64,000 nucleotides of DNA from an uncultured Fibrobacter sp. (lineage in GTDB: Bacteria; Fibrobacterota; Fibrobacteria; Fibrobacterales; Fibrobacteraceae): positions 1 through 64,000 of the forward strand of contig NZ_CAMZCS010000009.1 in the NCBI RefSeq assembly GCF_947305105.1, in the 5' to 3' direction. How positions within the stretch are numbered: position 1 is the first letter of the stretch; each line of letters begins with the position of its first letter. Below are positions 2,651 through 16,812 of this stretch, in pieces. The position numbers and the translations under genes were made by a program. The notes beneath the pieces are model-generated. The model saw only the letters and a list, made by a program, of their open reading frames with translations, did not search any database and was not told the origin of the DNA.

Positions 2651-3370
2651 TTAGCGTTCCCACATGAATATCACATCTACAGGCCCCGAGGCTCCAACTC
2701 TAAAACTCAACGTATAATTCTGGGAGTCATATGTTGCAGAACAGATAACAAGATCCGTTCCTAAGCAAGACCAGCCATACTTAGCCAAATCACTTTCAAT
2801 CTCATCCAAAGATTTGTATGTCGATACTGAGTTCACAAATACAATACCATTTTCAGTAACGGATGAACACACCTTATTCCTGGATAAAGCTTCCGGAGGC
2901 AACAGAACTGGACAAGCAGAAGTTACAAATTTTTTCTGCAAGTCACGGTCGCTCATGGGAGCTGTAACCGAGCGGAAATTACCGACAAATGTTCCCATCG
3001 TATAGGTAAAAGTCAATGTGTCATTAACAGAAATAAACGTTGTATAATCAGAAGCATCTCTTACATAGCGATAAGATTCCTGAACCTGTTCTTCTTTTTG
3101 GAAGCCACTTGCAATCAGCAACGTGTCAAACTTCAGCATTTCGTCCAAGGCAATTTGTTGCTGGGCTTCACAACCACCACTTAATGTCGGCTGCCAAGCA
3201 AGCGAAGATGCAGGAAGTTTTTGAGTGGCGAGGTCGCACTTGGACGCATTATTTTTTGAGTTCGAACAAGAAGCGTCATTGCAAGGTTGCGTTGCACCTC
3301 CAGAATCCGATCAAGAGCAAGCTATCAAAAAGGCAAGCACCACGCCAAATACAACAAACATTTTATTCAT
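2651..3370 (-). pseudogene. Lipoprotein gene interrupted by an in-frame TGA at codon 20
   Basis: Reading from the ATG at 3370 (GGAG seven bases upstream) gives a lipoprotein signal peptide ending in the lipobox LIAC, then Ser, then TGA at 3311-3313. The same frame continues for 219 more codons to the stop at 2651, through a Cys-rich mature region (PCNDASC, KCDLA, GGCEAQQQ) and a 165-residue part that could restart at the ATG at 3148. The mature part includes AKYGWSC, one Tyr-Gly pair. Function not recognised. The intact frame on both sides of the stop suggests a recent nonsense mutation, or a sequencing error, in a real 239-residue lipoprotein. It is the last gene in the direction of the lipoprotein/radical SAM block. 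Confidence 0.7.
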
Positions 3371-3449
3371 AATCATCTCCTTCTATTTGAGAATGTAAGA
3401 AAAAGGACCAACTTTGTCAAACAAACTCACGACCGAAACAAAAAAAATG

Positions 3450-3493
3450 TAGGAAGTAGGAAGTAGACAATGGTTAGTGGTTGGTGGTTAGGA
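3450..3493. repeat. Low-complexity TAGGAAG / TGGTTAG string
   Basis: GTAGGAAGTAGGAAGTAGAC followed by GGTTAGTGGTTGGTGGTTAG, in the spacer between two lipoprotein genes. Confidence 0.6.
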
Positions 3494-3532
3494 TTTTTTT
3501 ATGCACTACAAGCCGGACTTGGCGAATTCCAC

Positions 3533-4291
3533 TTAGGAATCTTCTTCGGCATCAACATCGCAGATAGACTCGTTATACGCCTTTAATTCGCCTTCATCTG
3601 TCGGGTTGAAATCATCCGGATGATTGATACAGGAATCAAGCAATGCGGTGTATTCCGCGACCCGCTTATCGTAAGCCTGTTTGTAATTCTCTTGATAGAT
3701 GGCTAATTTGTTTTCGTACTCTTCAAGCAGTTTTTCGTAGGCACGATATTGTTCAGTGACATACGTCGTGCCGTCATCACATACGAGTTCCTTTATTATG
3801 ATATCGAAACTTGGAGATCCGTACAAATACGTTGCGCTCGAAAATTCAGCTAGAGAATCGGCCATTTTAGAAAGGCAAAAAGGAGTCCCTTTAGGATATT
3901 TGCCAGAACAAGCATTCGGTCTTGAATAAACTTCATGCATAACACGTCCGGCAGCCAAGCTGCGAGCACTGGATTCTGCATTTTTTATTGCGTTAATTTT
4001 GGTTAAGTTGCTTGTTCCTTCTTCAGGAATCCTATTAAATACTGTTTTTTCCGAGCAAGTTCTCTGACGGCTACTTGATGACGCGATGGATGATGAACTT
4101 TCTGATTGTTCGTCCTCCTGACTACTGCTTGATACAGAACTGGAACTTTCTGGTTGTTGAATGTCCTGGCCTTGCGAATCTGGACTTTGTAGATTCACCG
4201 GATTGCTGTTCGAAATATCGTCAGAGCAACTAGCCCAAAAAAACGCTGCCGATATAAAAAAGACTTTATTAAATAATTTGCGAATATTCAT
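3533..4291 (-). CDS. Ser-rich lipoprotein of the YG family (L2), probably shortened
   Basis: Start taken at 4291 (MNIRKLFNK), after AGGGGGTGTT; an upstream extension in the frame is not credible because it runs back through the preceding lipoprotein gene. 252 residues. The signal peptide ends SAAFFWASC, with Cys at about residue 22, then a Ser/Gln-rich linker to about 75. One YG motif (YLYGSP) precedes VCDDGTTYVTEQYRAYE and a charged coiled-coil-like stretch ending in LLDSCINHPDDF. Relatives in this block share that CxDGTxxxTEEYxxYE module (4323-5324, 11435-12286). The stop TAA at 3533 is followed in frame by VEFAKSGL and TAG at 3506, matching the EFAKTGL end of the next gene upstream, so a nonsense change seems to have removed the normal tail. 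Function unknown. Confidence 0.8.
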   Translation of the reverse strand: MNIRKLFNKVFFISAAFFWASCSDDISNSNPVNLQSPDSQGQDIQQPESSSSVSSSSQEDEQSESSSSIASSSSRQRTCSEKTVFNRIPEEGTSNLTKINAIKNAESSARSLAAGRVMHEVYSRPNACSGKYPKGTPFCLSKMADSLAEFSSATYLYGSPSFDIIIKELVCDDGTTYVTEQYRAYEKLLEEYENKLAIYQENYKQAYDKRVAEYTALLDSCINHPDDFNPTDEGELKAYNESICDVDAEEDS

Positions 4292-4322
4292 AACACCCCC
4301 TTTTATTTTCAAAAGACTCTCA

Positions 4323-5324
4323 CTACAAGCCAGTCTTGGCGAATTCTCCATGGAAGTCGCCTTCATTATTTTTCTTGCTGGAACTGGACGACTTTGCCTC
4401 GACAGTCTTTTCGGAACTGGAGGATTCTGCTGGAGCGGAGCTAGACGACTTCGCTTTTTTAGAACTGCTGCTAGTTTCTTCCTCTTCTTCGTATTCATTT
4501 TTTAGGCATATACCGGAATCATAGAATTCCAAGGAATCTCGAGGAGGATGACTTTCTAGTGAATAACAATAGAGTTCTTCTTCATCTTTATCAGCCAGCT
4601 TGAAATCGTCCGGGTGGTTGACGCAGGAATCCAGCAGGGACATGAGCTCAGCGGATCTTTTGCTGCGGTATTTATCATAATACTTGTCGTATGCTTCCTC
4701 ATAGGCCGCTTTCTGTTCCTCGTAAGCCTTGACTTCTTTTTCGTGAGCCTTGAGATCTTCTTCGTAGCTTAGGTATTCTTCCGTGAGACGCGTTGTTCCG
4801 TCGGGGCAATAGACGGACTTTGTTATACTGCCTTCAGTAGAAAGCGCTCCGTATAAGGGTGGGTTACGATGGGCCAGCGTGTCTGCCATTTTAAAGAGGC
4901 AGAATGTTGTCGTATATGGGTAAAAGATCGTTTCGTAACCTTCGTCATAATATTTTACATGAAAAATCCGCTCCAAGACAGAGTCGTGGATGTCGATTTG
5001 CGCCCTCCGCTCGGCAGATTTTTCTGCGTCTTCCTTTGGATCCTTTTTATAGGATTCATCCCGGTAGTCTATCGGCCATATGTGATCAATCGATTGGCAA
5101 TTAGAGTAATTCGAAGAACTGCTGCTTGACGATTTAACGTGGCTCGAACTGCTGGATTTGTTTCCGACGGTTGAGCTTCCGGAGTCTGTTGTTGGGGTGT
5201 CGGAGTTGGCTGTTGCGTCCTCGTTGTCGCTGGCGGCCTTTGTGACAGAATCGTTGGAACACCCCGCCCAGAAGAGCGCAGCCGATATAAGAATAATTTT
5301 ATTCAAGAATTTACGGATGTTCAT
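4323..5324 (-). CDS. Ser-rich lipoprotein of the YG family (L3)
   Basis: 333 residues. The signal peptide ends ISAALFWAGC (Cys near residue 22), followed by Asp/Ser linkers. The middle part has one YG motif (PPLYGALSTE), then CPDGTTRLTEEYLSYEEDL, a long Glu/Lys/Tyr-rich helix suited to a coiled coil, and LLDSCVNHPDDF. The C-terminus is another poly-Ser/Lys linker ending EFAKTGL. It starts 16 bases after the radical SAM gene at 5341-6417, so the two are probably cotranscribed. It is predicted to be anchored in a membrane facing the periplasm or surface. Exact role unknown; being a substrate of the neighbouring radical SAM enzyme is inference. Confidence 0.85.
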   Translation of the reverse strand: MNIRKFLNKIILISAALFWAGCSNDSVTKAASDNEDATANSDTPTTDSGSSTVGNKSSSSSHVKSSSSSSSNYSNCQSIDHIWPIDYRDESYKKDPKEDAEKSAERRAQIDIHDSVLERIFHVKYYDEGYETIFYPYTTTFCLFKMADTLAHRNPPLYGALSTEGSITKSVYCPDGTTRLTEEYLSYEEDLKAHEKEVKAYEEQKAAYEEAYDKYYDKYRSKRSAELMSLLDSCVNHPDDFKLADKDEEELYCYSLESHPPRDSLEFYDSGICLKNEYEEEEETSSSSKKAKSSSSAPAESSSSEKTVEAKSSSSSKKNNEGDFHGEFAKTGL

Positions 5325-5340
5325 AAACGCCTCGTGCCTT

Positions 5341-6417
5341 TTAAGTCCCCGCTTCTTCCAATCGCTTCACGTGGCAGTACATCAGTTCCCCGGTTTTTTC
5401 GTCGCGGAGGTGCAGGCTGGATCCTTCGCAGTAGCGCCAGTACTTGCAGTCCTTGCAATCACCGGTCTTTGCCCAACTGTGGTCGCGCATCACCTGGTAG
5501 CGGTTCTGCCACACGTCCCACAGGTCATCCTTATAGATGTTTCCCTGAATAAAGTCGCCGCGCAGGCTCGGGCATGCCGAGATGCTGCCGTCGCAAAGCA
5601 CGGAGGCGATATTCACGCCCGCCCTGCAAAAGTACGGGTAATCGCGGGCTTCTTTTTCGTAACTCCCGAGGAATCCTTCGCAGTCGGCACTTACTCCGAT
5701 GATTCTCTGCTTCTTGACTTCCCTGATAAAATCGTAAATCTGCCGGAATTCCTTGCTTGTGAGCTGGAAAAGCGGATTGTCCTTGGCTCGGCCCTTCGGG
5801 AACACGGTCGCGACTCGCCAGCGCTTTACTTCGAGCTTGAGGAGCAAATCCAGAATGCGAGGCAGTTCGGCCAAGTTCCTCTTGTTCACGCAAGTCATCA
5901 CGTCGAAGGTGAGCCCCCAGGCATGCGATGCCATGTTGATGGCTCGAACGGCCTTGTCGAAGCTATGCTTGTCGCCACGGAAAAAGTTGTGCGTTTCTTC
6001 GAGGCCGTCGAGGCTAATGGTGAGCGAGCGCAGCCCCGCGTTCATATACTTGGTGAAGCGTTCAGGAGTCATCGCAAGCCCGTTCGTGACCATGCCCCAG
6101 GGGTAGCCGCGCTTCTGGATTTCCTTGCCGCATTCCTCGAGATCGGGGCGCATCAGCGGCTCGCCGCCGGTAATCACCACGATGAACTTTTTCGGGTCGA
6201 TGTGCGGCTTCAGCGAGTCCAGCACCTGCAAGAAGTCTTCGCGGGGCATGTCGGGGATGGCATCCTTGACGCAGTCGCTGCCGCAGTGCTGGCAGTGCAG
6301 GTTGCAGCGCAGCGTGCATTCCCAGAAGAAATATTCGAGCGGATGCGCCTTGGTTTCACCGTGGCGGTAAAGACGGTAGGCCTCGAGGGCGAGTTTCTTC
6401 TTCAGAGATAGCTTCAT
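5341..6417 (-). CDS. Radical SAM/SPASM peptide-modifying enzyme 1 (rSAM/lipoprotein type)
   Basis: 358 residues. The radical SAM cluster motif is C38-NLH-C42-QH-C45 within WECTLRCNLHCQHCGSDC, followed by the SAM-binding TGGEPLMRPDL. The C-terminal SPASM region has CRAGVNIASVLC, CDGSISACPSLRGD, GNIYKDDLWDVW and GDCKDCKYWRYCEGSSLHL with a final Cys near the end, as in maturases that bind extra 4Fe-4S clusters. From memory it fits the family annotated as radical SAM of the rSAM/lipoprotein system (TIGR04133). Its ATG overlaps the stop of the small lipoprotein upstream (ATGA), and a lipoprotein follows 16 bases later. Most residues match the second copy at 9171-10247. Modifying the flanking YG lipoproteins is inference. 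Confidence 0.9.
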   Translation of the reverse strand: MKLSLKKKLALEAYRLYRHGETKAHPLEYFFWECTLRCNLHCQHCGSDCVKDAIPDMPREDFLQVLDSLKPHIDPKKFIVVITGGEPLMRPDLEECGKEIQKRGYPWGMVTNGLAMTPERFTKYMNAGLRSLTISLDGLEETHNFFRGDKHSFDKAVRAINMASHAWGLTFDVMTCVNKRNLAELPRILDLLLKLEVKRWRVATVFPKGRAKDNPLFQLTSKEFRQIYDFIREVKKQRIIGVSADCEGFLGSYEKEARDYPYFCRAGVNIASVLCDGSISACPSLRGDFIQGNIYKDDLWDVWQNRYQVMRDHSWAKTGDCKDCKYWRYCEGSSLHLRDEKTGELMYCHVKRLEEAGT

Positions 6418-6842
6418 TTATTTTCCCCGTTATTTTTTTTCGGACAATCTACGGTGGCGACGCAATCGTTGTATGAATGGATTGTCCCGGCTGAGTCCGT
6501 GTAGTTTACGTCGTAGCAAATTTCAGGCCCGACGAACTGGCAGTTCGTCGCCTCGCACCTTTCGTCCGGGTATGGTGTGTCTTCCCGGAAAAAGAGGTCC
6601 TTGTCTATCATGTCGCGAACTTCGGGATCATCGTAGTAGAGTTTCGGATGTCTCAGGTACTTGTACCTGTTCTCGCATTCGATGATGTCAAAGGTCTTTC
6701 CCGATGGAGTCACGGCGGTGGAATTGTAGCACTTGTAGGAATTGCAGCCGTAGGTCGCTACGCTATCGTCGCTGTTTTCGCAGGCCCCCCAAAAGAGGGC
6801 TAGCATGGAAAGGAAAAGGTATTTGAGGAACTTGTAGGGCAT
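6414..6842 (-). CDS. Small Cys-rich lipoprotein of the YG family (L4)
   Basis: 142 residues, the simplest member of the set. The leader ends MLALFWGAC; the mature part opens with ATYGCNSYKC, a YG followed at once by Cys-x4-Cys. The rest is the shared C-terminal module: CYNSTAV, FDIIECENRYKYLR, then Cys-rich CEATNC, EICYDV and DCVATVDCPKK. The same module ends the lipoproteins at 7998, 12316 and 13349. No Ser linker. The stop overlaps the start of the radical SAM gene (ATGA), so translation of the two is probably coupled. This makes it the most likely direct partner of that enzyme. Confidence 0.87.
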   Translation of the reverse strand: MPYKFLKYLFLSMLALFWGACENSDDSVATYGCNSYKCYNSTAVTPSGKTFDIIECENRYKYLRHPKLYYDDPEVRDMIDKDLFFREDTPYPDERCEATNCQFVGPEICYDVNYTDSAGTIHSYNDCVATVDCPKKNNGENK

Positions 6843-6854
6843 AGAGCTCAGGGG

Positions 6855-7856
6855 CTAGGGAGCTGGGTCTGGTGGGGTGAGGCAGTCGTCAATTTCCCTC
6901 TTGAGGAAATTCTCGATTTTTTCGATTTGCTTTTGATAGTGCGGGTTTACGGTGGTGTCGCCGTCACAGATCTGCTTTTTGGCGAGAACGTTGACTGAAT
7001 GAGAGTCTTTGTTCTTCTTCAAGATGATTTCGCCGCCCAATTCTTGGATATACGAAAGACAACTGGAGTCAGACGGGGATAGCGTTTCGCCTTTTTCAGC
7101 CTTGACGCTGTCCAGGAGGGTTGCCTTGTCCGTTTCGAACAATTCCCTGAGCTCGCCTGTTGTCGCGAAATCCGTTTTTTGGCAAAGCGGGGACGGGGGC
7201 GTTGCGCTGCTGGACTCCGGCTCGGCGCTGGAACTGGACTGGAACTTTTCTGGATACTTGGCCCTGTATTCTTCTTCCGTGTAGAGGGTTCGAATTTCGT
7301 CGCTGTAGAACGAACTTGCGGAATACGTTTCGTTATTTGTGCATTTATATACGGCGTATCCCAAATCCCTATGAGTACAGTCCGGCACACCGTACTCGGG
7401 TGCCCCATAATCAAATCCTACTATCAAATCATCTTCGAGGGAATCAAGTTCTGCCAATGTGCGGGTCTGGTTTTCTTCCAGCATTTTTTTACGAGTTTCC
7501 GTCCAAGAGCGTTTATCTTCGGCATCGAGGCAATTGTTGGTACCGGGAACGTTGGACCGTATACAGGTGATGTCTGGATTGCTACCCATCCGGTACTGGT
7601 CGCCTCTGAGGCTGGAACTGGACTGCTCCACTACGGCAGAGCTTGAACTTTCGGCAATGCCTTCGCTGGAACTTGATTCGGCGATACCACTGGAGTTTGA
7701 CGTTTCGGAACTCGACGAGAACGCAGCGTTGTCGGAAGAAGATACTGGTGGTGGGGCAACTCCGTACAGGGGTTGTGCTTCGTCTTCGTAGGTGCAGCTT
7801 ACCCAAAAAAAAGCGGTCAGCGCAAGAACGATTTTTTTCCAATGCCTGTAAAACAT
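6855..7856 (-). CDS. Ser-rich lipoprotein of the YG family (L5)
   Basis: 333 residues. Leader MFYRHWKKIVLALTAFFWVSC, as in most genes upstream. Three YG motifs: QPLYGVAP right after the lipidation site, and the pair FDYGAPEYGVPDC in the middle. Two poly-Ser linkers surround a segment with CIRSNVPGTNNC, and a C-terminal region with CQKTDF and two further Cys ends in DDCLTPPDPAP. It is the first gene after a recognisable promoter at 7903-7930 and lies 12 bases before the small lipoprotein L4. Function unknown. Confidence 0.85.
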   Translation of the reverse strand: MFYRHWKKIVLALTAFFWVSCTYEDEAQPLYGVAPPPVSSSDNAAFSSSSETSNSSGIAESSSSEGIAESSSSAVVEQSSSSLRGDQYRMGSNPDITCIRSNVPGTNNCLDAEDKRSWTETRKKMLEENQTRTLAELDSLEDDLIVGFDYGAPEYGVPDCTHRDLGYAVYKCTNNETYSASSFYSDEIRTLYTEEEYRAKYPEKFQSSSSAEPESSSATPPSPLCQKTDFATTGELRELFETDKATLLDSVKAEKGETLSPSDSSCLSYIQELGGEIILKKNKDSHSVNVLAKKQICDGDTTVNPHYQKQIEKIENFLKREIDDCLTPPDPAP

Positions 7857-7902
7857 ATTTTCTCCCGTATCGCAAGATGCCTTAACTTGAACGTTTCTTT
7901 TT

Positions 7903-7930
7903 AATATATAATAAGTTGCGATGATTGTAA
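7903..7930 (-). promoter_or_regulatory. Promoter for the L5-L4-rSAM1-L3-L2 unit
   Basis: On the minus strand TTACAA (7930-7925), 16 bases, then TATATT (7908-7903), about 45 bases before the start at 7856. The rest of the 140-base spacer shows nothing else clear. Confidence 0.5.
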
Positions 7931-7997
7931 GCGTTTTTCCCGTTTTAGAGGCACATGGCGTTGGTTTTGTCAGTCAAGCTGTTTCTTATGGTTCGCG

Positions 7998-9011
7998 CTA
8001 TTGAACCGGCCTAGAGGGGCATTCGGTCGTAGGAACACACCCACCGTTATTTCGCGGGTTCCCGAACTCATCTAGGACAACATTGTCGATGCAGACCGAA
8101 GACGGTGTGCAGTTGGCGGCGTAAGATGCCGTAGGCTGCGGAGCCGTTCTCTCGACGCCTTCGGGCAACGGAAGGCGACTTTCCGATACGTTCACGATAG
8201 GTTCGCGCAGGTACTTTTTCCCGTCGTCGCATTCGATGATGTCGAAAGAAGTTCCCGCTGCATTCTTGGCGGTATCGTTGTAGCACAGGACCGCTTCGGA
8301 AGAATCCTTGATGCCGAGGCAGTTATCGATTTGTTCACCAAGTTTCTTTTTTATTCTTTCGCGGTCCTTGTCGCATTGTTCTGATTTCTGGACAGCTTCT
8401 TCCGGGGTTATTTGACTTTGTTCTGCATATTTTTTGAGTGACTGCGAAAAAAAAGTGGATCCGTCGCTGCATTTGATATCAAGAGTAATCTCGGAGGAAG
8501 GGCCATAGAGCATTACCGGCTTCTGTATGGTGTCCAGTATGCTTTTTAGGCATTCCTTGGTTTCTTCGGAAATAGGATTGGCGGATCCGGAATCGGATAG
8601 CAGGATTGCCTGGATTCTAGAATGTGCAGATTGTTCCGCCAACTGTTCCGCACTCATACCAAATGACGGGTTGCACCCGTTTCGGTTCGGCTCGCAGGAA
8701 TCCGGAACGATTTCCGCTTGGTCCCTTATGTTGATGATCTTCGATATATTCAAGTTGCCTGACGATGAAGATTCTTCCTGAATAATCAAACTCAGAGACG
8801 ATTCTGACGAAGATGAAGCTTTTTCTGACGAAGAAAGCGGCTGCGACGAGCTGGTTTCTGTCGCCGAAGAACTTTCGATGCTGCTAGAACTGATAGACGA
8901 TCCTTCCGTGTCGTTCTTCGGAGAACTGATATCGCCGTCGTTGCTGCAATTGGCCCAAAACAGTGCTGTCGAAACAAGGAATAAATTTCTTAAATGCTTG
9001 CGAATATTCAT
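7998..9011 (-). CDS. Ser-rich lipoprotein of the YG family (L6)
   Basis: 337 residues. Leader MNIRKHLRNLFLVSTALFWANC, then a Ser/Glu linker to about residue 85. One YG motif (VMLYGPSSEI) precedes CSDGSTFFSQSLKKY, a form of the module in L2 and L3. The C-terminus carries the other shared module: CYNDTAKNAAG, FDIIECDDGKKYLREP, LPEGV and CVPTTECPSRP. The two C-terminal module types are therefore joined in one protein, which links the subfamilies. It probably has its own promoter (TATATT, minus strand, 9037-9032). Confidence 0.84.
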   Translation of the reverse strand: MNIRKHLRNLFLVSTALFWANCSNDGDISSPKNDTEGSSISSSSIESSSATETSSSQPLSSSEKASSSSESSLSLIIQEESSSSGNLNISKIINIRDQAEIVPDSCEPNRNGCNPSFGMSAEQLAEQSAHSRIQAILLSDSGSANPISEETKECLKSILDTIQKPVMLYGPSSEITLDIKCSDGSTFFSQSLKKYAEQSQITPEEAVQKSEQCDKDRERIKKKLGEQIDNCLGIKDSSEAVLCYNDTAKNAAGTSFDIIECDDGKKYLREPIVNVSESRLPLPEGVERTAPQPTASYAANCTPSSVCIDNVVLDEFGNPRNNGGCVPTTECPSRPVQ

Positions 9012-9110
9012 AAAACATCCCTTTTTTCAGCAATATACCTTTTTTTCCCGAGTTTTACAGGCAATTACAAATTCCGTATTTTTCCGTGATTGAGGGCATG
9101 TTTTTTGAAC

Positions 9111-9147
9111 AAGAAACGGGGCCCGAACCCGAACCCCGTTTCTTTTC
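9111..9147 (-). terminator. Terminator-like hairpin after rSAM2
   Basis: AAGAAACGGGG and CCCCGTTTCTT form an 11-bp stem between the radical SAM gene and L6. The T-rich tail is clearer on the plus strand (TTTCTTTT) than on the minus strand, so termination of rSAM2 is likely but not certain. Confidence 0.55.
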
Positions 9148-9170
9148 TCATAGCTCATCGCTCACTGCTA

Positions 9171-10247
9171 TTATGCTCCCGCGTCTTCGAGACGCTGCAC
9201 ATGGCAATAGGCCAGTTCCTTAGTCTTTTCGTCGCGCAAATGCAGGCTCGAGCCTTCGCAGTAGCGCCAGTACTTGCACTTCTTGCAGTCGCCAATCTTG
9301 GCCCAGCTGCGGTCACGCATCACCTGGTAACGCTTCTGCCACACATCCCAGAGGTCATCCTTGTAGATGTTGCCCTGAATGTAGTCGCCGCGCAAGCTCG
9401 GGCATGCCGAAATGCTGCCATCGCAAAGCACCGAGGACACGTTCACGCCGGCACGGCAGAAGAACGGGTAGTTGCGTGCATCCTTCTCGTAGCTGCCGAG
9501 GAAGCCTTCGCAACCGTAGTTCACACTGATGACGTTCAACTTCTTGACTTCGCGGATAAAGTCGAATACCTGGCGGAATTCCTGATTCGTCATCTGGAAC
9601 AGCGGATTGTCCTTGGCACGGCCCTTCGGGAACACCGTCGCGATACGCCAGCGTTTCACTCCGATTTTCAGGAGCATATCGAGAATCTTCGGGAGTTCCT
9701 TGAGGTTCTGGCGGTTCACGCAGGTCATCACGTCGTAAGTAAGCCCCGGCGTGTGCGCCGCCATGTCGATGGCGCGCAGCGCTCGCTCAAAGCTATGCGG
9801 GTCGCCACGGAAATGGTTGTGGCTATCTTGCAAGCCGTCGAGGCTGATGGTGATTGAGCGGAGCCCCGCGTTCAAAAGCTTCACGAATCGTTCGGGCGTC
9901 ATGGCAAGCCCGTTAGTCACCATGCCCCAGGGGTAGCCGCGCTTCTTGATTTCTTGACCGCATTCCTCGAGGTCGGGGCGCATGAGCGGTTCGCCACCAG
10001 TAATCACCACGATAAAGTGCTTGGGGTCGATGTGCGGGGCGAGCTTGTCCAGCACGTTCATGAAGTCTTCACGAGGCATGTCGGGGATGGCATCCTTGAC
10101 ACAGTCGCTACCGCAATGCAGGCAGTGCAAGTTGCAGCGCAACGTGCATTCCCAGAAAAAATAAGTGAGGGGGTGAGCCTTGATTTCGTTATGACGATAA
10201 AGGCGGTAAGCTTCGAGAGCGAGTCGTTTTTTAAGAGAGAGTTTCAT
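9171..10247 (-). CDS. Radical SAM/SPASM peptide-modifying enzyme 2 (rSAM/lipoprotein type)
   Basis: 358 residues, the same length as the copy at 5341-6417 and identical at most positions, including the N-terminal FFWECTLRCNLHCLHCGSDC with the CX3CX2C cluster motif, TGGEPLMRPDLEECG and the SPASM cysteines (CRAGVN, LCDGSISACPS, GDCKKCKYWRYCEGSS). Differences cluster in middle helices and in segments such as VISVNYGCEG versus IIGVSADCEG. It lies 74 bases after L7 and is probably the last gene of a long unit beginning at 16812 with eight lipoproteins. A weak extra promoter may exist in the AT-rich spacer 10290-10320. Retention of both enzymes, one per lipoprotein set, suggests specialisation (inference). 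Confidence 0.9.
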   Translation of the reverse strand: MKLSLKKRLALEAYRLYRHNEIKAHPLTYFFWECTLRCNLHCLHCGSDCVKDAIPDMPREDFMNVLDKLAPHIDPKHFIVVITGGEPLMRPDLEECGQEIKKRGYPWGMVTNGLAMTPERFVKLLNAGLRSITISLDGLQDSHNHFRGDPHSFERALRAIDMAAHTPGLTYDVMTCVNRQNLKELPKILDMLLKIGVKRWRIATVFPKGRAKDNPLFQMTNQEFRQVFDFIREVKKLNVISVNYGCEGFLGSYEKDARNYPFFCRAGVNVSSVLCDGSISACPSLRGDYIQGNIYKDDLWDVWQKRYQVMRDRSWAKIGDCKKCKYWRYCEGSSLHLRDEKTKELAYCHVQRLEDAGA

Positions 10248-10321
10248 AGGCTTTTAGGATCTAGGGGCTAGAGGTTAAAGTGAAAAAAAAGCAAATTCAA
10301 TCTTTAATATAATATCTAAAT

Positions 10322-11023
10322 TCAATTTTTGTCCTCGTTGATGCGGTATCTTGTATTAAACTCGATTTGGTCATAAGTTTTTCCGTCGCTACAGGTGTAT
10401 TTCTTTTGTGTAGAAGATAATAAACTGTAATCTACGCAACCATTTTCATTGCATTCAGAAGGGGGATTGTGTTCTGAATCGACCTGTGCCGTTGCTTCGG
10501 TACATGTTTTTGAATCGCATTTATATTGTTTGCAAGATATGGCGTAAATCTTGTTTGTGTATTCTGAGCTTTTGCTGCTAAACAGGGAGTCGAAATCGCA
10601 GGTGGCTGCGGTGTCGGTCAGGTTGCATGGTGTTTGTGGCGCGTAAACCGCGGAAAAACTGCTGTAGGAGAGTGCCTCGCTGCTGGAACTGTAAGCTTCA
10701 ATGCTGCTGGAACTGCTTAAGTCGAGTGAAGGGGGGCATTCTATCGCTCCGCAACCATATGTCGGCACAGGAGTTTCGTAGCTTGAGCTTGATTCTACAA
10801 AGCTAGAACTTGTTTCTACAAAACTAGAGCTTGATTCCTCGCCATTTGCCTCGCTGCTCACGGGAATCGACGAGCAGAGTCCAGTGTCGCAGGGCACTTC
10901 GATTCCGTATAGGGCTGGGGACACTTGGGGGTCATCTTCTGCTGAAGACGAAGTGTTGTCACAACTGGCCCAGAAAAATCCGGTCAGTGCGAGTGCAATC
11001 TTTTTCCAATGTTTGTAGAACAT
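10322..11023 (-). CDS. Ser-rich lipoprotein of the YG family (L7)
   Basis: 233 residues. Leader MFYKHWKKIALALTGFFWASC. Two YG motifs, both joined to Cys-x4-Cys: LYGIEVPCDTGLC and TYGCGAIEC, separated and followed by poly-Ser. The C-terminal half has several Cys (CNLTDTAATC, SCKQYKC, KTCTEA) and ends with the module CSDGKTYDQIEFNTRYR, which matches CDNGKVYNEAEF of the three genes at the far end of the block. Fifteen bases separate it from L8. Confidence 0.85.
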   Translation of the reverse strand: MFYKHWKKIALALTGFFWASCDNTSSSAEDDPQVSPALYGIEVPCDTGLCSSIPVSSEANGEESSSSFVETSSSFVESSSSYETPVPTYGCGAIECPPSLDLSSSSSIEAYSSSSEALSYSSFSAVYAPQTPCNLTDTAATCDFDSLFSSKSSEYTNKIYAISCKQYKCDSKTCTEATAQVDSEHNPPSECNENGCVDYSLLSSTQKKYTCSDGKTYDQIEFNTRYRINEDKN

Positions 11024-11038
11024 AGATATGGTTATTGT

Positions 11039-11404
11039 CTAGTGGGTGTCTTCTTTTTCGTAATATCTTGACTCGATTTCGTCTTGGGGGATAGGGTTGC
11101 CTTGAGCATCGTAGCAGCTCATAACCGTTTCGTTTTCTTGTTTGTAGCAAGAAGCTCCATCTTCACATTTGTAATAATCGGTACATGGATCACGAGGGAT
11201 GAATGTGCATTTTTCATCTTTGTCAGGAGATTCATAATCTTCTGGGTTCTCGCAAAAATAAAAGTCGATACCATATTCAGGGCAACCTCCCCCTTTAAAG
11301 GTGCATGCGGTTTTCTCATCGCTGGATGACGAATCGTCGCCACAACCGAACCAGAACAGGGCTGCTATTGCAAGAACAAATTTTTTCCAATGTTTTCGAA
11401 ACAT
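11039..11404 (-). CDS. Small Cys-rich lipoprotein of the YG family (L8)
   Basis: 121 residues, without a Ser linker apart from DDSSSSDE. Leader MFRKHWKKFVLAIAALFWFGC. One YG motif of the CPxYG type (GGCPEYGIDFYFC). The rest is Cys-rich and acidic: CTFIPRDPCTDYYKCEDGASC, then CYDAQGNPIPQDEIESRYYE. The start codon directly follows a repeat string (ACTGTTTACTAACC on the coding strand), so there is no normal Shine-Dalgarno sequence of its own. Confidence 0.82.
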   Translation of the reverse strand: MFRKHWKKFVLAIAALFWFGCGDDSSSSDEKTACTFKGGGCPEYGIDFYFCENPEDYESPDKDEKCTFIPRDPCTDYYKCEDGASCYKQENETVMSCYDAQGNPIPQDEIESRYYEKEDTH

Positions 11405-11405
11405 G

Positions 11406-11449
11406 GTTAGTAAACAGTGGTTAGTGGTTGGTGGTTAGGAATTAGGAGT
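11406..11449. repeat. Low-complexity TGGTTAG string next to the L8 start codon
   Basis: GGTTAGTAAACAGTGGTTAG followed by TGGTTGGTGGTTAGG. It also covers the last codons of L9. Almost the same words sit next to the trpB start at 35208-35249. Confidence 0.6.
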
Positions 11450-12286
11450 TGATTGTGCGTTGTTTGTTTCTCTGGCGAGACATTGCTTGAGCTGCTGTTC
11501 AAGTTCCTTGAACCTGTCCTCGAAAATCTTATTGATTTCTTCGTCCAGAGCGGGCTTGTTTGCTTCCCATTCTTCCATCATCTTCTGGTATTTCTTGTAT
11601 TCTTCCGTAGGCTGTTTGGTGCCGTCGCTGCAAACCTCTTCTACGGTAACTGCTACAGGGGCGCCGTACAGGGCGACAAAGCGCTCAAGCGAGTCTTTCA
11701 TTTCCTTGAGGCATTGGGGGAAGTTGCTCCAGTTGATTCTGTCAAGAGGCGCTTCGGCCCGTTCTGCCTTTGGACGCGGGTCGACAATGCTGTCGATGAC
11801 GTCTACCATTTCCATCTCAGCCTGCTGTTTTGCGTTCATCTTCAAAATGTCGGCCGAATAGGCTGGCGGGTAATAGCTTACGATCGAATCGCCGGGCACA
11901 CAAGTCTTTTCCGTTACAGATACACCATAAAGTGTATCTGACGGCACGCTATTCGGATCAATGCTTGAACTCGATTCTCCGAATACGGGTAAATCTCCGT
12001 AAAGAGGGGCGAAATCTTCGATGCTGGAACTTTCGGGCTTGGCCGCCTTGGAACTGGACGATGCAATCGTTGTGCTGGAACCGGATCCTGCCGCATTGCC
12101 GGATGCGGATTCTTCCGAACTGGACGAAGGTGTCGTTTCGTCGGGACCGGGTACGGGAGTGCCGCAAACATCCGACGGGCAGCCGTATTCGGGAGCGCTG
12201 TAACTGACAGAGGAAGAATCGTCGCAACTGGCCCAGAAGAGGGCGACCGTGGTGAGCAGAACTTTTTTCAAGTATTTGTTTAACAT
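11435..12286 (-). CDS. Ser-rich lipoprotein of the YG family (L9)
   Basis: 283 residues. Leader MLNKYLKKVLLTTVALFWASC. Four YG motifs: APEYGCPSDVCG with Cys-x4-Cys soon after lipidation, APLYGDLPVFG, DTLYGVSVTEKTC and VALYGAPVAV. The last leads straight into VCSDGTKQPTEEYKKYQKMM and a charged helical end (EEINKIFEDRFKELEQQL), the same module as L2 and L3. Its final codons lie in a repeat string, so the exact C-terminus may vary between strains. Confidence 0.85.
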   Translation of the reverse strand: MLNKYLKKVLLTTVALFWASCDDSSSVSYSAPEYGCPSDVCGTPVPGPDETTPSSSSEESASGNAAGSGSSTTIASSSSKAAKPESSSIEDFAPLYGDLPVFGESSSSIDPNSVPSDTLYGVSVTEKTCVPGDSIVSYYPPAYSADILKMNAKQQAEMEMVDVIDSIVDPRPKAERAEAPLDRINWSNFPQCLKEMKDSLERFVALYGAPVAVTVEEVCSDGTKQPTEEYKKYQKMMEEWEANKPALDEEINKIFEDRFKELEQQLKQCLARETNNAQSTPNS

Positions 12287-12315
12287 AATGGTGTTCGGTT
12301 GAAATAAAGAGTCTG

Positions 12316-13323
12316 TTAAGTTTCGGGTTTTTCAGGGCAGTTGATGGATGGGTAGCATCCACCGATGGGTTGTTCGTTCCCGTTTTCATCTATGGTAAAT
12401 GCGTCAATGCAAATGTCCGCTTCTCTAGTGCAGTTTTGGGCATAACCGTAACCTGACGCTGGAGTAGGTGGAACAGGATTAACACCTTCGGGCAATTCCT
12501 TTTGCGTTTCGGGAAGGTCCATGTATAGGTTTTGGAATCTCAGGTATTTTTTTCCGTCTTTGCATGCAATGATGTCGAATACCTTGCCCGAATCGTTTAC
12601 GGCAGTATCGTTGTAACAATATACAGCCATTCCACCATAAGTCGGTACAGGGACTTCGAAACTGGAACTGGATTCTGCAACATCGCTAGAACTTGAAATA
12701 GTCCCTTCGGAGCTGGAACTGCTGGGAAACTCGGCTAAATACTCTTCCAGTGTATAGAGCTTATCGCGACCTTGCTTATCGCGACCTTGTACTAGGGCCC
12801 CGTCGCCCTCTTTTAGGACCGATATACTACTATGCGCTTTGCGTTGAATCCCGTCGGAGCATATATAGTTCGCAATATAATCATATCGGAGACAATTGGG
12901 AACTGTAAGGGTTCCATAAATTGCATTTGCATTGGTAAAAGCTAGTAGAGTTTCTGTTTTTAGCTGTTTTTTGGAGTGTGCCTGGTTTCTGTACTGTAAA
13001 CATTCGCCTGTTTCGTTCAAGCCTATTGAGGAACAAACTACGTTCGTATCACTGGCAAGATGATGAGTGCCAGAAAATTTTATGCTGGAACTTTCGGGCT
13101 TGGCGGCCTCGGAACTTGACGATGCAATAGCCTCGCTAGAACTAGACTGCGCATCATTTGCCCCGCTGCTTTCGGGAATTTCCATACAAGTATCCGAGTC
13201 GCAGACCACCCCGTATGTGGGAGCTTCAACAACAAGGCTTTTTGCAGATGAGGAATCATCGCAACTGGTCCAAAACATTGCGGCCAACGTAAGAGCAAAT
13301 TTTTTCCAGTGATTATAGAACAT
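12316..13323 (-). CDS. Ser-rich lipoprotein of the YG family (L10)
   Basis: 335 residues. Leader MFYNHWKKFALTLAAMFWTSC. YG motifs: APTYGVVCDSDTC (with Cys-x4-Cys), NAIYGTLTVPNC and PVPTYGGMAVYC, plus a GYGYA. The middle region (residues about 80-200) holds CSSIGLNETGEC, CLRYDYIANYIC and a short duplication GRDKQGRDKLYT. The last part is the shared module CYNDTAVNDSG, FDIIACKDGKKYLR, LPEGV, CTREADIC, GCYPSINCPEKP, as in L4, L6 and L11. Confidence 0.85.
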   Translation of the reverse strand: MFYNHWKKFALTLAAMFWTSCDDSSSAKSLVVEAPTYGVVCDSDTCMEIPESSGANDAQSSSSEAIASSSSEAAKPESSSIKFSGTHHLASDTNVVCSSIGLNETGECLQYRNQAHSKKQLKTETLLAFTNANAIYGTLTVPNCLRYDYIANYICSDGIQRKAHSSISVLKEGDGALVQGRDKQGRDKLYTLEEYLAEFPSSSSSEGTISSSSDVAESSSSFEVPVPTYGGMAVYCYNDTAVNDSGKVFDIIACKDGKKYLRFQNLYMDLPETQKELPEGVNPVPPTPASGYGYAQNCTREADICIDAFTIDENGNEQPIGGCYPSINCPEKPET

Positions 13324-13348
13324 ATATTTTCTCAGTTATGTGTAATAA

Positions 13349-14161
13349 TTAATTCGGCTTTTCGGGGCAGTCGATGATGGGGTGGCAGCCGGCAAGCGAA
13401 TCTTGCTCGGCTGGAATGTTGGGATTCCGTTCGATGCAAATGTCCGATTCGCTTGTGCAGTTCGCTGCTCTGGTTGTACCGGCCGTGGGCGCAAAGACCT
13501 GGACTCCGTCTGGAAGGGGCGTGTCCTTGGTTGCATCATAGGGATTCCTTAGGTATTTTTTCTTGGATGACTCGATGATGCCATCGCCCGACTTTGGCCC
13601 GCATTCGATAATCTCGAATTCAACCCCTTCCGCATTGTTTTCGGTAGTGTTGAAACAGTTGTATGTAATTCCGTACAACGTGGAACTCATGCGGAGTTCG
13701 CTGCTGGAACTGGTGGAGGGAACTCCGTACGCCGGCACACTCATGCGGATTACACTGCTGGAACTTTCGGTTGAGGAACTGCTTTTGGGCCTGATGCTGG
13801 AACTGGTGGAGGGAACTCCGTACGCCGGCACACTCATGCGGATTACACTGCTGGAACTTTCGGTTGAGGAACTGCTTTTGGGCCTGATGCTGGAACTGGT
13901 GGAGGGAACTCCGTACGCCGGCACACTCATGCGGATTTCGCTGCTGGAACTTTCGGCAGAAGAACTGCTTTCGGGCCTGATGCTGGAACTGGTGAAGGGG
14001 ATCCCGTACATCGTGGAACTCATGCGGATTTCGCTGCTGGACGAACTGTATTCCGGATTCGAATTGTTATCACCGCCCGTGACGGATATTGTGTCTCCGC
14101 AACTGCTCCAAAAGAATGCAGTCAGCGCGACGGCGAATTTTTCAAAGTGTTTGTAGAACAT
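13349..14161 (-). CDS. YG lipoprotein with near-perfect tandem repeats (L11)
   Basis: 270 residues. Leader MFYKHFEKFAVALTAFFWSSC. Residues about 45-165 are a tandem array: a 31-residue unit (RMSVPAYGVPSTSSSIRPK, then SSSSTESSSSV) with AYGVP in each of three copies, flanked by MYGIP and LYGIT in degenerate copies, five YG motifs in all. At the DNA level the period is 93 bp. After the array comes CFNTTENNAEGVEFEIIECG, KKYLRNP, LPDGV, CTSESDIC and GCHPIIDCPEKP, the module of L4, L6 and L10. Such an array presents repeated identical YG sites between Ser linkers, as expected of a repeated substrate core (inference). Confidence 0.87.
   Translation of the reverse strand: MFYKHFEKFAVALTAFFWSSCGDTISVTGGDNNSNPEYSSSSSEIRMSSTMYGIPFTSSSIRPESSSSAESSSSEIRMSVPAYGVPSTSSSIRPKSSSSTESSSSVIRMSVPAYGVPSTSSSIRPKSSSSTESSSSVIRMSVPAYGVPSTSSSSELRMSSTLYGITYNCFNTTENNAEGVEFEIIECGPKSGDGIIESSKKKYLRNPYDATKDTPLPDGVQVFAPTAGTTRAANCTSESDICIERNPNIPAEQDSLAGCHPIIDCPEKPN
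13741..14019. repeat. 93-bp tandem repeat, three copies
   Basis: Copies start at 13741, 13834 and 13927 (TCATGCGGATT...). The first two are practically identical; the third differs at a few positions. Each encodes 31 residues with one AYGVP motif. Confidence 0.9.
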
Positions 14162-14214
14162 GGCTTATTTCCTCCTATCCTCAAATCTACCCGATTGATA
14201 ATCTTTATTTGTTC

Positions 14215-14904
14215 TTAGTTGTCCTGCTTATTCACGGGAGCGTCGTAGTACATCTGGAATTCGGCTTCGTTGTAGACTTTGCCGTTGTCGCACTTGTATT
14301 GCTTTTCGGAAATGGAGACCACTCCGTACGCGGGGCAAACGTCTCCCGAACAAGGTAGGGACTGGTAGGCTTCCTTGGTCTCTTCCTCGCAGGTTACGCC
14401 GTCTTCGCACTTATATACCGTGTTTCCGTTGTTGTTTTGGGTGGCTTGACAGGCCGTTTTACTCGACACTCCGTATTTGGCGATGATTTCGCCGAGGGAA
14501 TCAAGTGCTATGGGGGCGACTACGCCGTATTTGGCCGCGATTACGCCGTACAGGGCGACCATGGAATCGGCAGTAAACGGACCGCAAATATCCGACGGGC
14601 AACCGTACAGATCGATGGGCTCGTCTAGCAGGGAACTGCTGCTGCGCGGATTATCCACACTTGTGCTGCTTTCGGTGGCTACGCTGTTCGGCTCCGAGGT
14701 GCTGGATGCCGCGCTTGTGGCTTCGCCGGATGATGCGGCCTCGTTTCCTGAGGTTGCGTTGGAACTGGATGAGGCTCCTCCGGTTACGGAACTGGAGGGA
14801 GTCTCGTTTTCAACCGAGACCGGACTAGAAGATGTGTCGTCGCAACTGACCCAGAAGAATCCGGCCAGGGCGAGTACGATTTTTTTCCAGTGCTTGTAAA
14901 ACAT
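14215..14904 (-). CDS. YG lipoprotein with Ala/Ser linker (L12)
   Basis: 229 residues. Leader MFYKHWKKIVLALAGFFWVSC, then an Ala/Ser/Thr linker to about residue 88. Five YG motifs: DLYGCPSDICGPF (Cys-x4-Cys), VALYGVIAAKYGVV (two), IIAKYGVSSKTAC and VCPAYGVVSISEK. The last begins the module YGVVSISEKQYKCDNGKVYNEAEFQ that L13 and L14 share. Other cysteines: CQATQNN, KCEDGVTCEEE and PCSGDVC. Closely related to the next gene, L13, so the two look like a tandem duplication. Confidence 0.86.
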   Translation of the reverse strand: MFYKHWKKIVLALAGFFWVSCDDTSSSPVSVENETPSSSVTGGASSSSNATSGNEAASSGEATSAASSTSEPNSVATESSTSVDNPRSSSSLLDEPIDLYGCPSDICGPFTADSMVALYGVIAAKYGVVAPIALDSLGEIIAKYGVSSKTACQATQNNNGNTVYKCEDGVTCEEETKEAYQSLPCSGDVCPAYGVVSISEKQYKCDNGKVYNEAEFQMYYDAPVNKQDN

Positions 14905-14921
14905 TCAACTCCTCCTTTTTT

Positions 14922-15965
14922 TTATTTCTCTTTGTTACAGGTCCCGTCGAACACGCAGGGCGGGCCGTACAGGGCAATGGGAGCTTGGATAGAATCCTTG
15001 TGAATGACTATTTCCTTGATTTCGGGCAGCGTGTCGTAGAGCATCTGGAATTCGGCCTCGTTGTAGACTTGGCCATTGTCGCATGTGTACGTTTTCTTGG
15101 AAATCTTGACCACTCCGTACTTGGGGCAAACATCGCCGTTGCATGCAGGAGCTTGCGTTCCTGTAGTCGTTTCTTCTACGCAAGTCACTCCGTCACTGCA
15201 TTTGTATGTAACAGTTCCGTCTTTGGACATGGATGGTTCGCAAGTCGGTTTGTTCGGCACCCCATACTTAGCGATGATTTGAGTAAATGAACTTGAACTT
15301 TCAGGGCGTATTACGCCATATTTTGCAACAATCTGGGAGAAGGAACTAGAACTGGAACTCTTGGGGCGAATTACGCCGTATTTGGCGGCAATCTGGGAGA
15401 TGGAGTCGGAGATGGTGACGGAATCGGTGATAAACGGACCGCAGATGTCCGAGGGGCATCCGTACAGGTCGACAGGCTCGTCCAAATGACTGTTGCTGGA
15501 ACGGGGCTTTTTGACACTGGAACTGCTTTTGGCACTGCTGGCAGGCTCGGAGCTAGAACTCGAAACGCTGCTGGCGGTGCTTTCGGCGCTGGATTCCTCG
15601 CTTGCTTCTTCTGCGCTGGACGCTGCGCTCTTGGCTGATTCGCTGGATGCGGCGCTTGTTGTGCTAGAAGCAGCATTGCCGTGAGATTCACTACTCGGGT
15701 TCGAGGAACTGCTGGCCGCACTTTTTGCGCTGGACGTTGCACTTGCGGCTGCAACACTGGAAGTGGCACTCTTGGCCGTTTCGCTAGAGGCTGCACTTTT
15801 CGCTTTAGAACTAGAAGAGCCCCCCTCCCCTTCGGTATTCTCGTTGATGGAACTGGACGGAGTATCCTCGTTCACTGCAACGGGACCGGATGCGGTTTCG
15901 TCGCAGCTGGCCCAGAAGAACCCGGTCAGGGCAATGGCAATTTTTTTCCAGTGTTTGTAAAGCAT
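14922..15965 (-). CDS. YG lipoprotein with long Ala/Ser linker (L13)
   Basis: 347 residues. Leader MLYKHWKKIAIALTGFFWASC, then about 130 residues made almost only of Ala, Ser, Glu and Lys. Six YG motifs: DLYGCPSDICGPF; three of the form AKYGV (IAAKYGVIRPK, IVAKYGVIRPE, IIAKYGVPNKP) spaced by Ser runs; VCPKYGVVKISKKTY; and IALYGPPC near the end. The C-terminal module CDNGQVYNEAEFQ matches L12 and L14. The array and linker resemble L11 in design but not in sequence, so repeats of YG arose more than once (inference). Confidence 0.86.
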   Translation of the reverse strand: MLYKHWKKIAIALTGFFWASCDETASGPVAVNEDTPSSSINENTEGEGGSSSSKAKSAASSETAKSATSSVAAASATSSAKSAASSSSNPSSESHGNAASSTTSAASSESAKSAASSAEEASEESSAESTASSVSSSSSEPASSAKSSSSVKKPRSSNSHLDEPVDLYGCPSDICGPFITDSVTISDSISQIAAKYGVIRPKSSSSSSFSQIVAKYGVIRPESSSSFTQIIAKYGVPNKPTCEPSMSKDGTVTYKCSDGVTCVEETTTGTQAPACNGDVCPKYGVVKISKKTYTCDNGQVYNEAEFQMLYDTLPEIKEIVIHKDSIQAPIALYGPPCVFDGTCNKEK

Positions 15966-15993
15966 TTTTTTTGTTCCTTTCGGTTTGTTGACG

Positions 15994-16812
15994 TTACAAA
16001 TCCTTTTTAACGAACACGCCGTAGAGCGGAGCAGGAAGAGGTTCCGTTATTTCGTACTTGTCGTTGAATTCCTCTTCGGTAAGATCAGCAAACAGACTCT
16101 TGTAGGTTTTCTTCCCATCTTTTTCTTCAATGATGAATGAATCGCCATTGGCACATTCTACTTCGGTCCCGAATACTTCGCATGAAATTTTTCTTGTTTT
16201 CTTGGAATAACGGGTCAGGAATTCGGCCTCGTTATAGACTTTACCGTCACACATATAGGTCTTTTCGCTGATGGAGACAATTCCATAATCAGGACAAATT
16301 GTTAAGAGACCTTCTTCTGTTTCCTCGGTATCGCAGGGAAGACTTCCACTAATTTCTCTCTCTGATTCAACGCAGATTACGCCGTCTTCACAACGGAGTG
16401 TGGTTTGGCGAGTCGACGAATTTACATTTGTAGCATCGTTTGTTTCGGTTGTTAAATTGTCTGGATAGCAGGGCGTTCTTGCTGGTTCGGTAGATGACGA
16501 TGATACGTCCATGTCAATTCTAACCCCATAAAGAGCAATTGCATGCATGCCTTCAAAGCTGTCGCTGGAAGATTGCACTTGCTCTGCCGAGCTGGATGCA
16601 GCACTAGAACTCGAAGTTTGACTCGCTTCGCCTGTATTACCTGTTTCGGAACTAGAACTGGGAGTTAAGGTATTCTCGATGCTGGAACTGGATTGCTCAG
16701 GATCGGGATTATTAGCTACTGCAACTGGAGCAACAGAAGTAGAGTCATCACAGCCCACCCAAAAAAACGCAGTCAACGCTAACGCGACCTTTTTCCAGTG
16801 TCTGTAGAACAT
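15994..16812 (-). CDS. Ser-rich lipoprotein of the YG family (L14), first of the unit
   Basis: 272 residues. Leader MFYRHWKKVALALTAFFWVGC. Three YG motifs: IALYGVRIDMD, TICPDYGIVSISEK (start of the shared module with CDGKVYNEAEFLTRY) and APLYGVFVKKDL as the very C-terminus. Cys pairs include CYPDN, LRCEDGVIC, PCDTEE and SCEVFGTEVEC. It is the promoter-proximal gene of the run L14 to L7 plus rSAM2; gaps between these genes are 15-53 bases, with no clear terminator seen within. Confidence 0.85.
   Translation of the reverse strand: MFYRHWKKVALALTAFFWVGCDDSTSVAPVAVANNPDPEQSSSSIENTLTPSSSSETGNTGEASQTSSSSAASSSAEQVQSSSDSFEGMHAIALYGVRIDMDVSSSSTEPARTPCYPDNLTTETNDATNVNSSTRQTTLRCEDGVICVESEREISGSLPCDTEETEEGLLTICPDYGIVSISEKTYMCDGKVYNEAEFLTRYSKKTRKISCEVFGTEVECANGDSFIIEEKDGKKTYKSLFADLTEEEFNDKYEITEPLPAPLYGVFVKKDL

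Follow-up and report, generated by a model that had tools for sequence, protein, structure and literature searches.

PlpX, the first tyramine splicease, belongs to class IPR026482 (PMC11002830), and PlpXY acts on X-Tyr-Gly (XYG), naturally MYG and LYG, removing C8H9NO (PMC10533398). PMC10533398 credits Scott et al. 2022 (Chem) with 939 predicted splicease systems and 27 others characterised. The spliceotide products act as protease inhibitors (PMC11117315). NCBIfam, for its part, pairs the radical SAM family TIGR04133 with the lipoprotein family TIGR04134 in Bacteroidales and Treponema, where one enzyme adjoins one or two lipoproteins carrying XYG, usually XYGxP, near the lipidated cysteine. 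Both this pairing and tyramine splicing are already known. The present study concerns a 64,000-nucleotide window from an uncultured Fibrobacter sp. (contig NZ_CAMZCS010000009.1), in which lipoprotein genes packed around two TIGR04133 genes probably constitute a lipoprotein-tailoring system; the comparisons below suggest that these enzymes carry out tyramine splicing at X-Tyr-Gly, with a conserved signal peptide serving as leader.

The gene run occupies 3533-16812 on the minus strand and comprises 13 intact lipoprotein genes and two radical SAM/SPASM genes, all co-directional and tightly packed (intergenic gaps of -4 to 159 bases). Lipoprotein genes flank both radical SAM/SPASM genes on each side, the neighbourhood typical of TIGR04133. 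A preliminary description of this DNA had also read thirteen intact lipoproteins around two SPASM-type radical SAM genes, and had called the locus a greatly expanded form. The latter is borne out by the genus: the locus has one to five such lipoproteins in most other genomes, 15-17 in two close relatives and 13 here. Compared with the TIGR04133/TIGR04134 pair, the enzyme family is the same, whereas two enzyme genes here accompany 13 putative substrates with up to six sites each.

The lipoproteins contain 1, 1, 1, 3, 1, 2, 1, 4, 4, 5, 5, 6 and 3 Tyr-Gly (YG) dipeptides along the run, 37 in total. By contrast, when their mature parts (3,224 residues) were shuffled 20,000 times with composition preserved, the mean was 7.5 YG and the highest count 20. 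No other dipeptide in these mature parts is as over-represented as YG (4.8-fold), a quarter of all tyrosines there are followed by glycine, and the remaining window proteins showed no clear YG excess (37 seen versus 30.6 expected). The preliminary description recognised this pattern but counted 36 sites, as it gave three instead of four to the protein at 12316-13323; likewise, the residues it listed after YG (V, I, C, A, P or G) hold for 33 of the 37 sites, the other four having S, D, T or Y. Pro or Ala stands at position -2 of 28 of the 37 sites, Val follows at +1 of 17 and Pro at +2 of 13; X is most often Leu, Lys, Thr or Ala. Two published splicease tags, PIRPLYGLPI and AVAAGYGVVFP (PMC10533398), have counterparts of similar sequence here, the types APLYGVPx and IAAKYGVIRP.

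All 13 lipoproteins open with a signal peptide ending in F/L-W-x-x-C (MFYKHWKKIALALTAFFWASC, in contrast to ...LLGFSSC in the Bacteroidales pair). Signal peptides normally conserve little of their sequence. In the leader-type lipoproteins, however, His -16 is conserved at 86%, Trp -15 at 83% and Leu -10 at 96%; the conservation of Trp -3 is partly due to the selection filter described below. A model built on this signal peptide (the leader model) recovers all 13 proteins and further lipoproteins elsewhere in the genome (contigs C38, C1, C2 and C18), and YG was present in eight of the nine inspected there. Furthermore, Bacteroidales XYGxP lipoproteins keep their own signal-peptide end, LLGFSSC, which other lipobox open reading frames (ORFs) there do not. 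Because of this unusual conservation, the further YG lipoproteins that the leader model recovers and the parallel in Bacteroidales, the signal peptide appears to serve as the leader. The lipoproteins on C38, C1, C2 and C18 of this genome (L203-L206), which have YG and a similar signal peptide, are encoded far away from the enzymes, and one paralogue (L206:3439-4011) has no YG.

Conservation was examined pairwise in leader-type lipoproteins from many genomes of the family, selected by an aromatic residue at -3 from the lipidated Cys without demanding YG; nevertheless, YG was present in 133 of the 134 distinct lipoproteins. Across 1,468 alignments at ≤70% identity, YG was retained in 86% of cases, as against 56% for other Tyr, 52% for other Gly and 36% for the remaining residues; Cys was retained in 91%. 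In comparison with two close relatives that have this large cluster as well, 60 of 62 aligned YG sites were kept; the ratio of non-synonymous to synonymous substitution rates (dN/dS) was 0.01-0.06 for the enzymes and, where dS was computable, 0.12-0.40 for the lipoproteins. Thus, the YG sites are conserved under purifying selection, beyond mere repetition, and the shuffle excess together with this conservation rules out chance or low complexity as their origin. In an alignment of 11 proteins, YG columns coincide at the stalk and between two small modules (CPxYGVV), and in most rows also in the C-terminal tail (LYGPPC). A structural model of the protein at 15994-16812 (mean predicted local distance difference test score, pLDDT, 66) places its first and third sites in low-confidence stretches outside the folded parts. 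Comparison of the lipoproteins with Pfam and PHROGs gave nothing meaningful, and a fold search with one modelled lipoprotein gave no match at E ≤ 0.001.

The two enzymes, 82% identical to each other, match TIGR04133 (rSAM_w_lipo) over the whole model (positions 1-350 of 350) with 594.5 and 624.6 bits, far above the curated cut-off of 425 bits; the preliminary description had guessed this family, and the profile search proved it right. For both, TIGR04103 ("nif11-class peptide radical SAM maturase 3") ranks second, roughly level with TIGR04053. We take TIGR04103 to be the same as IPR026482, the PlpX class. Both enzymes carry the radical SAM CxxxCxxC motif and a SPASM auxiliary cluster domain, as expected of PlpX-type enzymes. 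A maximum-likelihood tree unites TIGR04133 and its 37%-identical paralogue with TIGR04103, TIGR03913 and two unnamed groups in a single clade (98/95; 81/81 in a first tree with longer branches), separate from NirJ1, NirJ2, NirJ, TIGR04053, TIGR04347 and MftC. The enzymes therein group with the PlpX type, which is represented by one TIGR04103 sequence above the cut-off and one relative, PlpX itself not being among them. The family scores and the tree rule out that the enzymes are relatives of the heme pathway or of the pyrroloquinoline quinone (PQQ)/mycofactocin enzymes. All 25 clade members have CxHCGS, whose Gly is absent from all seven outgroup enzymes, and all 25 have Trp at position 200, as does one of the seven; since the outgroup is small, the CxHCGS signature is a lead and no proof. 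The nearest solved structures to the enzyme model include SkfB, SuiB and PqqE, which indicates the fold, not the reaction. A sequence search of the PDB with the enzyme found only remote radical SAM enzymes, and a scan of IMG/VR for it found none.

YG substrates adjoin members of every branch of this clade. At a Nostoc TIGR04103 locus, a Nif11 precursor ending in ALYGLPPELF is followed by the enzyme and, directly behind it, a 71-residue ORF that stands where PlpY would be; the locus therefore fits TIGR04103 as the PlpX class. The GDL-motif maturases (TIGR03913; L089 and L090) are placed next to TIGR04103, and most of their DUF1843 precursors carry YG (LYGG, PYGV or PYGA). Unlike the lipoproteins studied here, these precursors are short peptides without a signal peptide. 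They occur in threes (L089:4156-4869, L090:4028-4743), some with YG and others with Y-A or Y-M at the same place. On an Agathobacter rectalis plasmid (L092:2710-4152), a 68-residue ORF ending in NLFGPVMYGTGVRM (VMYGTG) precedes an unnamed clade radical SAM gene and an MFS transporter, likely a small spliceotide-type system in a gut Firmicute.

Within the window's genus, two other genomes encode, beside purL (L042:8698-11166, L043:9223-11957), proteins of 312-400 residues with 14 and 21 YG, mostly in tandem KYGYPCGVQDA-like repeats (KYGYPC) behind a weak I42/chagasin-like start. The different, splicease-like enzyme there (486-495 residues, 30% identical) has TIGR04103 as its best NCBIfam match (229 bits for L042), and its neighbour may be a protein-size ketoamide array. 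In the window, purL lies at 18932-22807. The 37%-identical TIGR04133 paralogue adjoins a zinc-ribbon protein with a conserved [I/L]YGPPI (G000:C7:68811-69860, that is L037:9461-11345, in the window's own genome; also L040 and L041), which looks like a cytosolic XYG substrate.

Among 80 Bacteroidales TIGR04133 loci, 59 have a YG within 30 residues of the lipid Cys and within 400 bases of the enzyme, and 67 have a nearby YG lipoprotein by a looser test, several others being cut by contig ends. Pro occupies +2 at 99 of at least 140 Bacteroidales YG sites, and lipopeptides of 50 residues with YG arrays also occur in this order. In Treponema and some Prevotella/Bacteroidales lipoproteins, X is the lipidated Cys itself (SCYGMP, ACYGPAP; L087:7622-8011, L109, L116, L117); therefore, splicing would alter the lipid-bearing residue. 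The preliminary description named the TIGR04133/TIGR04134 pair and its MYGxP-like site. The Bacteroidales pair does carry [M/E/L/C]YGxP just behind the lipid Cys, and TIGR04134 (lipo_with_rSAM) scores 44-207 bits for the neighbours in Bacteroidales and Treponema, but none of the 13 lipoproteins matches that family at E ≤ 10 (cut-off 39.8 bits). Their assignment to TIGR04134 is thus ruled out; the site is common to both groups, the family is not.

Enzyme and lipoproteins also occur together. Of 61 genomes of the window's family, 32 have both an enzyme above the cut-off and leader-type lipoproteins, 27 have neither, and one each has one alone (Fisher 5e-15, a value that overstates independence, since lipoproteins encoded near the enzyme were used to build the leader model and the genomes share ancestry). 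Presence and absence of the pair both occur within three genera. In 119 Bacteroidales genomes, TIGR04134 was found in 14 of 28 with TIGR04133 and in none of 91 without it (Fisher 7e-11). According to the preliminary description, equal frequency of YG lipoproteins in genomes lacking the enzyme would speak against a link; the distribution favours the link, with one exception (genome G057, see below).

The family tree, the motif and the gene neighbourhoods all point to tyramine excision at X-Tyr-Gly as the specific chemistry. In the mechanism we propose, the TIGR04133 enzymes would recognise the pre-lipoproteins while these are still in the cytoplasm and not yet exported, by their conserved signal peptide, which would act in the manner of a leader of ribosomally synthesized and post-translationally modified peptides (RiPPs). 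They would excise part of the tyrosine from the backbone at X-Tyr-Gly and rejoin the chain, after which the lipoproteins would be exported, lipidated and displayed at the cell envelope. A single protein could then present as many as six ketoamides, which are electrophilic and would mostly lie in Ser-rich linkers, at the borders between small modules and in C-terminal tails. In the most speculative step, these ketoamides may serve in the gut to inhibit proteases or withstand them, or to form reversible bonds with amines and thiols for adhesion or cross-linking.

The system would thus work like a PlpX-type splicease system, with which it shares the clade, CxHCGS, SPASM and X-Tyr-Gly in a similar surround, yet it is not classed as a spliceotide system because the leader type differs and PlpY was not found. 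The substrates here are full-size envelope lipoproteins, whereas those of the PlpXY systems (Pleurocapsa, Nostoc) are Nif11/NHLP-led peptides, and Pfam/NCBIfam scans found no precursor leader of the Nif11 or NHLP type in the lipoproteins; this concerns the RiPP class more than the reaction. TIGR04133 enzymes carry an N-terminal helix (residues 5-24) before the radical SAM domain, modelled with high confidence in enzyme 2. The Nostoc enzyme's shorter N-terminus leaves no room for it; we speculate that this helix may stand in for PlpY. The broader reading is that TIGR04133 is a lipoprotein splicease lineage spanning Bacteroidota, the window's phylum and Spirochaetota, which writes alpha-ketoamide beta-residues into surface lipoproteins with the signal peptide as leader and without PlpY; we consider this claim evenly balanced.

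Some observations weigh against tyramine splicing here. The identity between TIGR04133 enzymes and the PlpX-type family is just about 28%, the equation of TIGR04103 with the PlpX class comes from annotation, locus architecture and InterPro, and the chemistry is read from clade, motif and neighbourhood. A PlpY-like query (the Nostoc ORF) gave no credible match in G000, G001 and G061, though a short diverged protein could escape such a search, and no YG precursor lies beside the Tropicibacter clade member within the stretch inspected. The placement of sites outside folded parts comes from one weak model (mean pLDDT 66). Finally, G057, of the window's genus, keeps leader-type YG lipoproteins (ALYGSS, CLYGAG/VLYGAP, VLYGTM/CLYGCH) without the enzyme; this genome is in about 150 contigs, and therefore the enzyme may sit in an assembly gap.

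Radical SAM/SPASM enzymes catalyse many reactions, the near structures SkfB, SuiB and PqqE make cross-links, and Cys is conserved like YG and often follows it (LYGCPSDICG, LYGPPCVFDGTC). The enzymes could hence modify X-Tyr-Gly by other radical chemistry, such as a cross-link of Tyr or X, a thioether to a conserved Cys or oxidation of Tyr. We regard this as unlikely, as the trees group TIGR04133 with the PlpX-type family and not with PqqE or MftC, many sites have no nearby Cys, above all in Bacteroidales, and X-Y-G-x-P is the motif of known splicease substrates. A decidedly improbable explanation is that YG is a structural turn of a tandemly duplicated lipoprotein family and that the enzymes have a different target or modify different residues. 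The 13 proteins do share signal peptides and modules through duplication, and the lipoproteins of G057 are in line with such a turn, but YG recurs in unrelated proteins (carboxypeptidase-regulatory-like lipoproteins, 50-residue lipopeptides, zinc ribbons) next to this enzyme family in three phyla, and next to related enzymes as well; the motif stays constant while site positions vary from N-terminal stalk to C-terminal tail; and enzyme and lipoproteins are gained and lost together across genomes. Finally, the system might be a true splicease system with a released peptide, a RiPP natural product for which the lipoproteins are mere carriers, as related clade members act on classical leader-bearing precursors (Nostoc, GDL type) and the Bacteroidales lipopeptides carry YG arrays. 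That the gene run shows no evident protease or peptidase-transporter gene, that the proteins have 121-347 residues with conserved modules and lipid anchors, and that the YG sites are distributed over the entire chain make this very improbable.

Table 1. Features of the lipoprotein and radical SAM gene run (window coordinates; sites are given with flanking residues)
Feature	Coordinates	Strand	Details
YG lipoprotein, 252 residues	3533..4291	-	1 site TYLYGSPS; matched by leader model
YG lipoprotein, 333 residues	4323..5324	-	1 site PPLYGALS; matched by leader model
Enzyme 1, radical SAM/SPASM, TIGR04133, 358 residues, predicted lipoprotein tyramine splicease	5341..6417	-	594.5 bits (cut-off 425); Pfam Radical_SAM and SPASM; dN/dS 0.05-0.06
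YG lipoprotein, 142 residues	6414..6842	-	1 site VATYGCNS; 4-base overlap with enzyme 1
YG lipoprotein, 333 residues	6855..7856	-	3 sites QPLYGVAP, GFDYGAPE, APEYGVPD; leader model E 6e-13
YG lipoprotein, 337 residues	7998..9011	-	1 site VMLYGPSS; leader model match
Enzyme 2, radical SAM/SPASM, TIGR04133, 358 residues, predicted lipoprotein tyramine splicease	9171..10247	-	624.6 bits (cut-off 425); model pLDDT 92, N-terminal helix 5-24; dN/dS 0.01-0.02
YG lipoprotein, 233 residues	10322..11023	-	2 sites PALYGIEV, VPTYGCGA; leader model match
YG lipoprotein, 121 residues	11039..11404	-	1 site CPEYGIDF; leader model match
YG lipoprotein, 283 residues	11435..12286	-	4 sites APEYGCPS, APLYGDLP, DTLYGVSV, VALYGAPV; leader model match
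YG lipoprotein, 335 residues	12316..13323	-	4 YG: APTYGVVC, NAIYGTLT, VPTYGGMA, ASGYGYAQ; leader model match
YG lipoprotein, 270 residues	13349..14161	-	5-site array STMYGIPF, 3x VPAYGVPS, STLYGITY; leader model match; 5/5 kept in L075
YG lipoprotein, 229 residues	14215..14904	-	5 sites IDLYGCPS, VALYGVIA, AAKYGVVA, IAKYGVSS, CPAYGVVS; leader model match; 5/5 kept in L075 and L076
YG lipoprotein, 347 residues	14922..15965	-	6 sites VDLYGCPS, AAKYGVIR, VAKYGVIR, IAKYGVPN, CPKYGVVK, IALYGPPC; leader model match; 6/6 kept in L075 and L076
YG lipoprotein, 272 residues, first gene of the run	15994..16812	-	3 sites IALYGVRI, CPDYGIVS, APLYGVFV; leader model match; structure modelled
Example of conserved signal peptide (proposed leader), MFYRHWKKVALALTAFFWVGC	16750..16812	-	Leader model A2, E 8.4e-13; similar element opens all 13 lipoproteins

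Two further lipoproteins lie near the run. The preliminary description had begun the range at 2651, which does not hold: the gene at 2651-3148 is broken by a stop behind the lipobox and is not part of the cluster. The lipoprotein at 2651-3400 has this stop directly after the lipobox (MNKMFVVFGVVLAFLIACS*) and lacks the family signal peptide. At 22985-23725 on the plus strand, another lipoprotein has the lipobox TFWGC followed immediately by TYGERC, with three YG in total; the leader search did not recover it, and it is no more than a possible substrate.

The literature searched, which did not extend to Scott et al. 2022 or Richter et al. 2024 (Chem Sci), makes no mention of TIGR04133 or TIGR04134. 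Within the same reach, there is no link of TIGR04133 to XYG splicing, none of tyramine splicing to lipoproteins and no cluster of this size. If the list of Scott et al. 2022, whose title names peptides and proteins, includes TIGR04133, the chemistry link is already known.

For an enzyme/lipoprotein pair that has a name but an open function, the proposal supplies one definite chemistry that can be tested. If it is true, it would make available a compact enzyme for protein labelling, along with numerous natural protein substrates. Under the broader lineage reading, the window would be one of the most site-rich natural cases seen in this analysis, with 37 sites and more elsewhere in the genome. 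Backbone splicing would extend beyond small secreted peptides to the anchored surface proteins of bacteria common in the gut and rumen, whose envelopes would display many electrophilic ketoamides; possible effects are protease inhibition, bonding to host or plant material and a stiffening of surface proteins.

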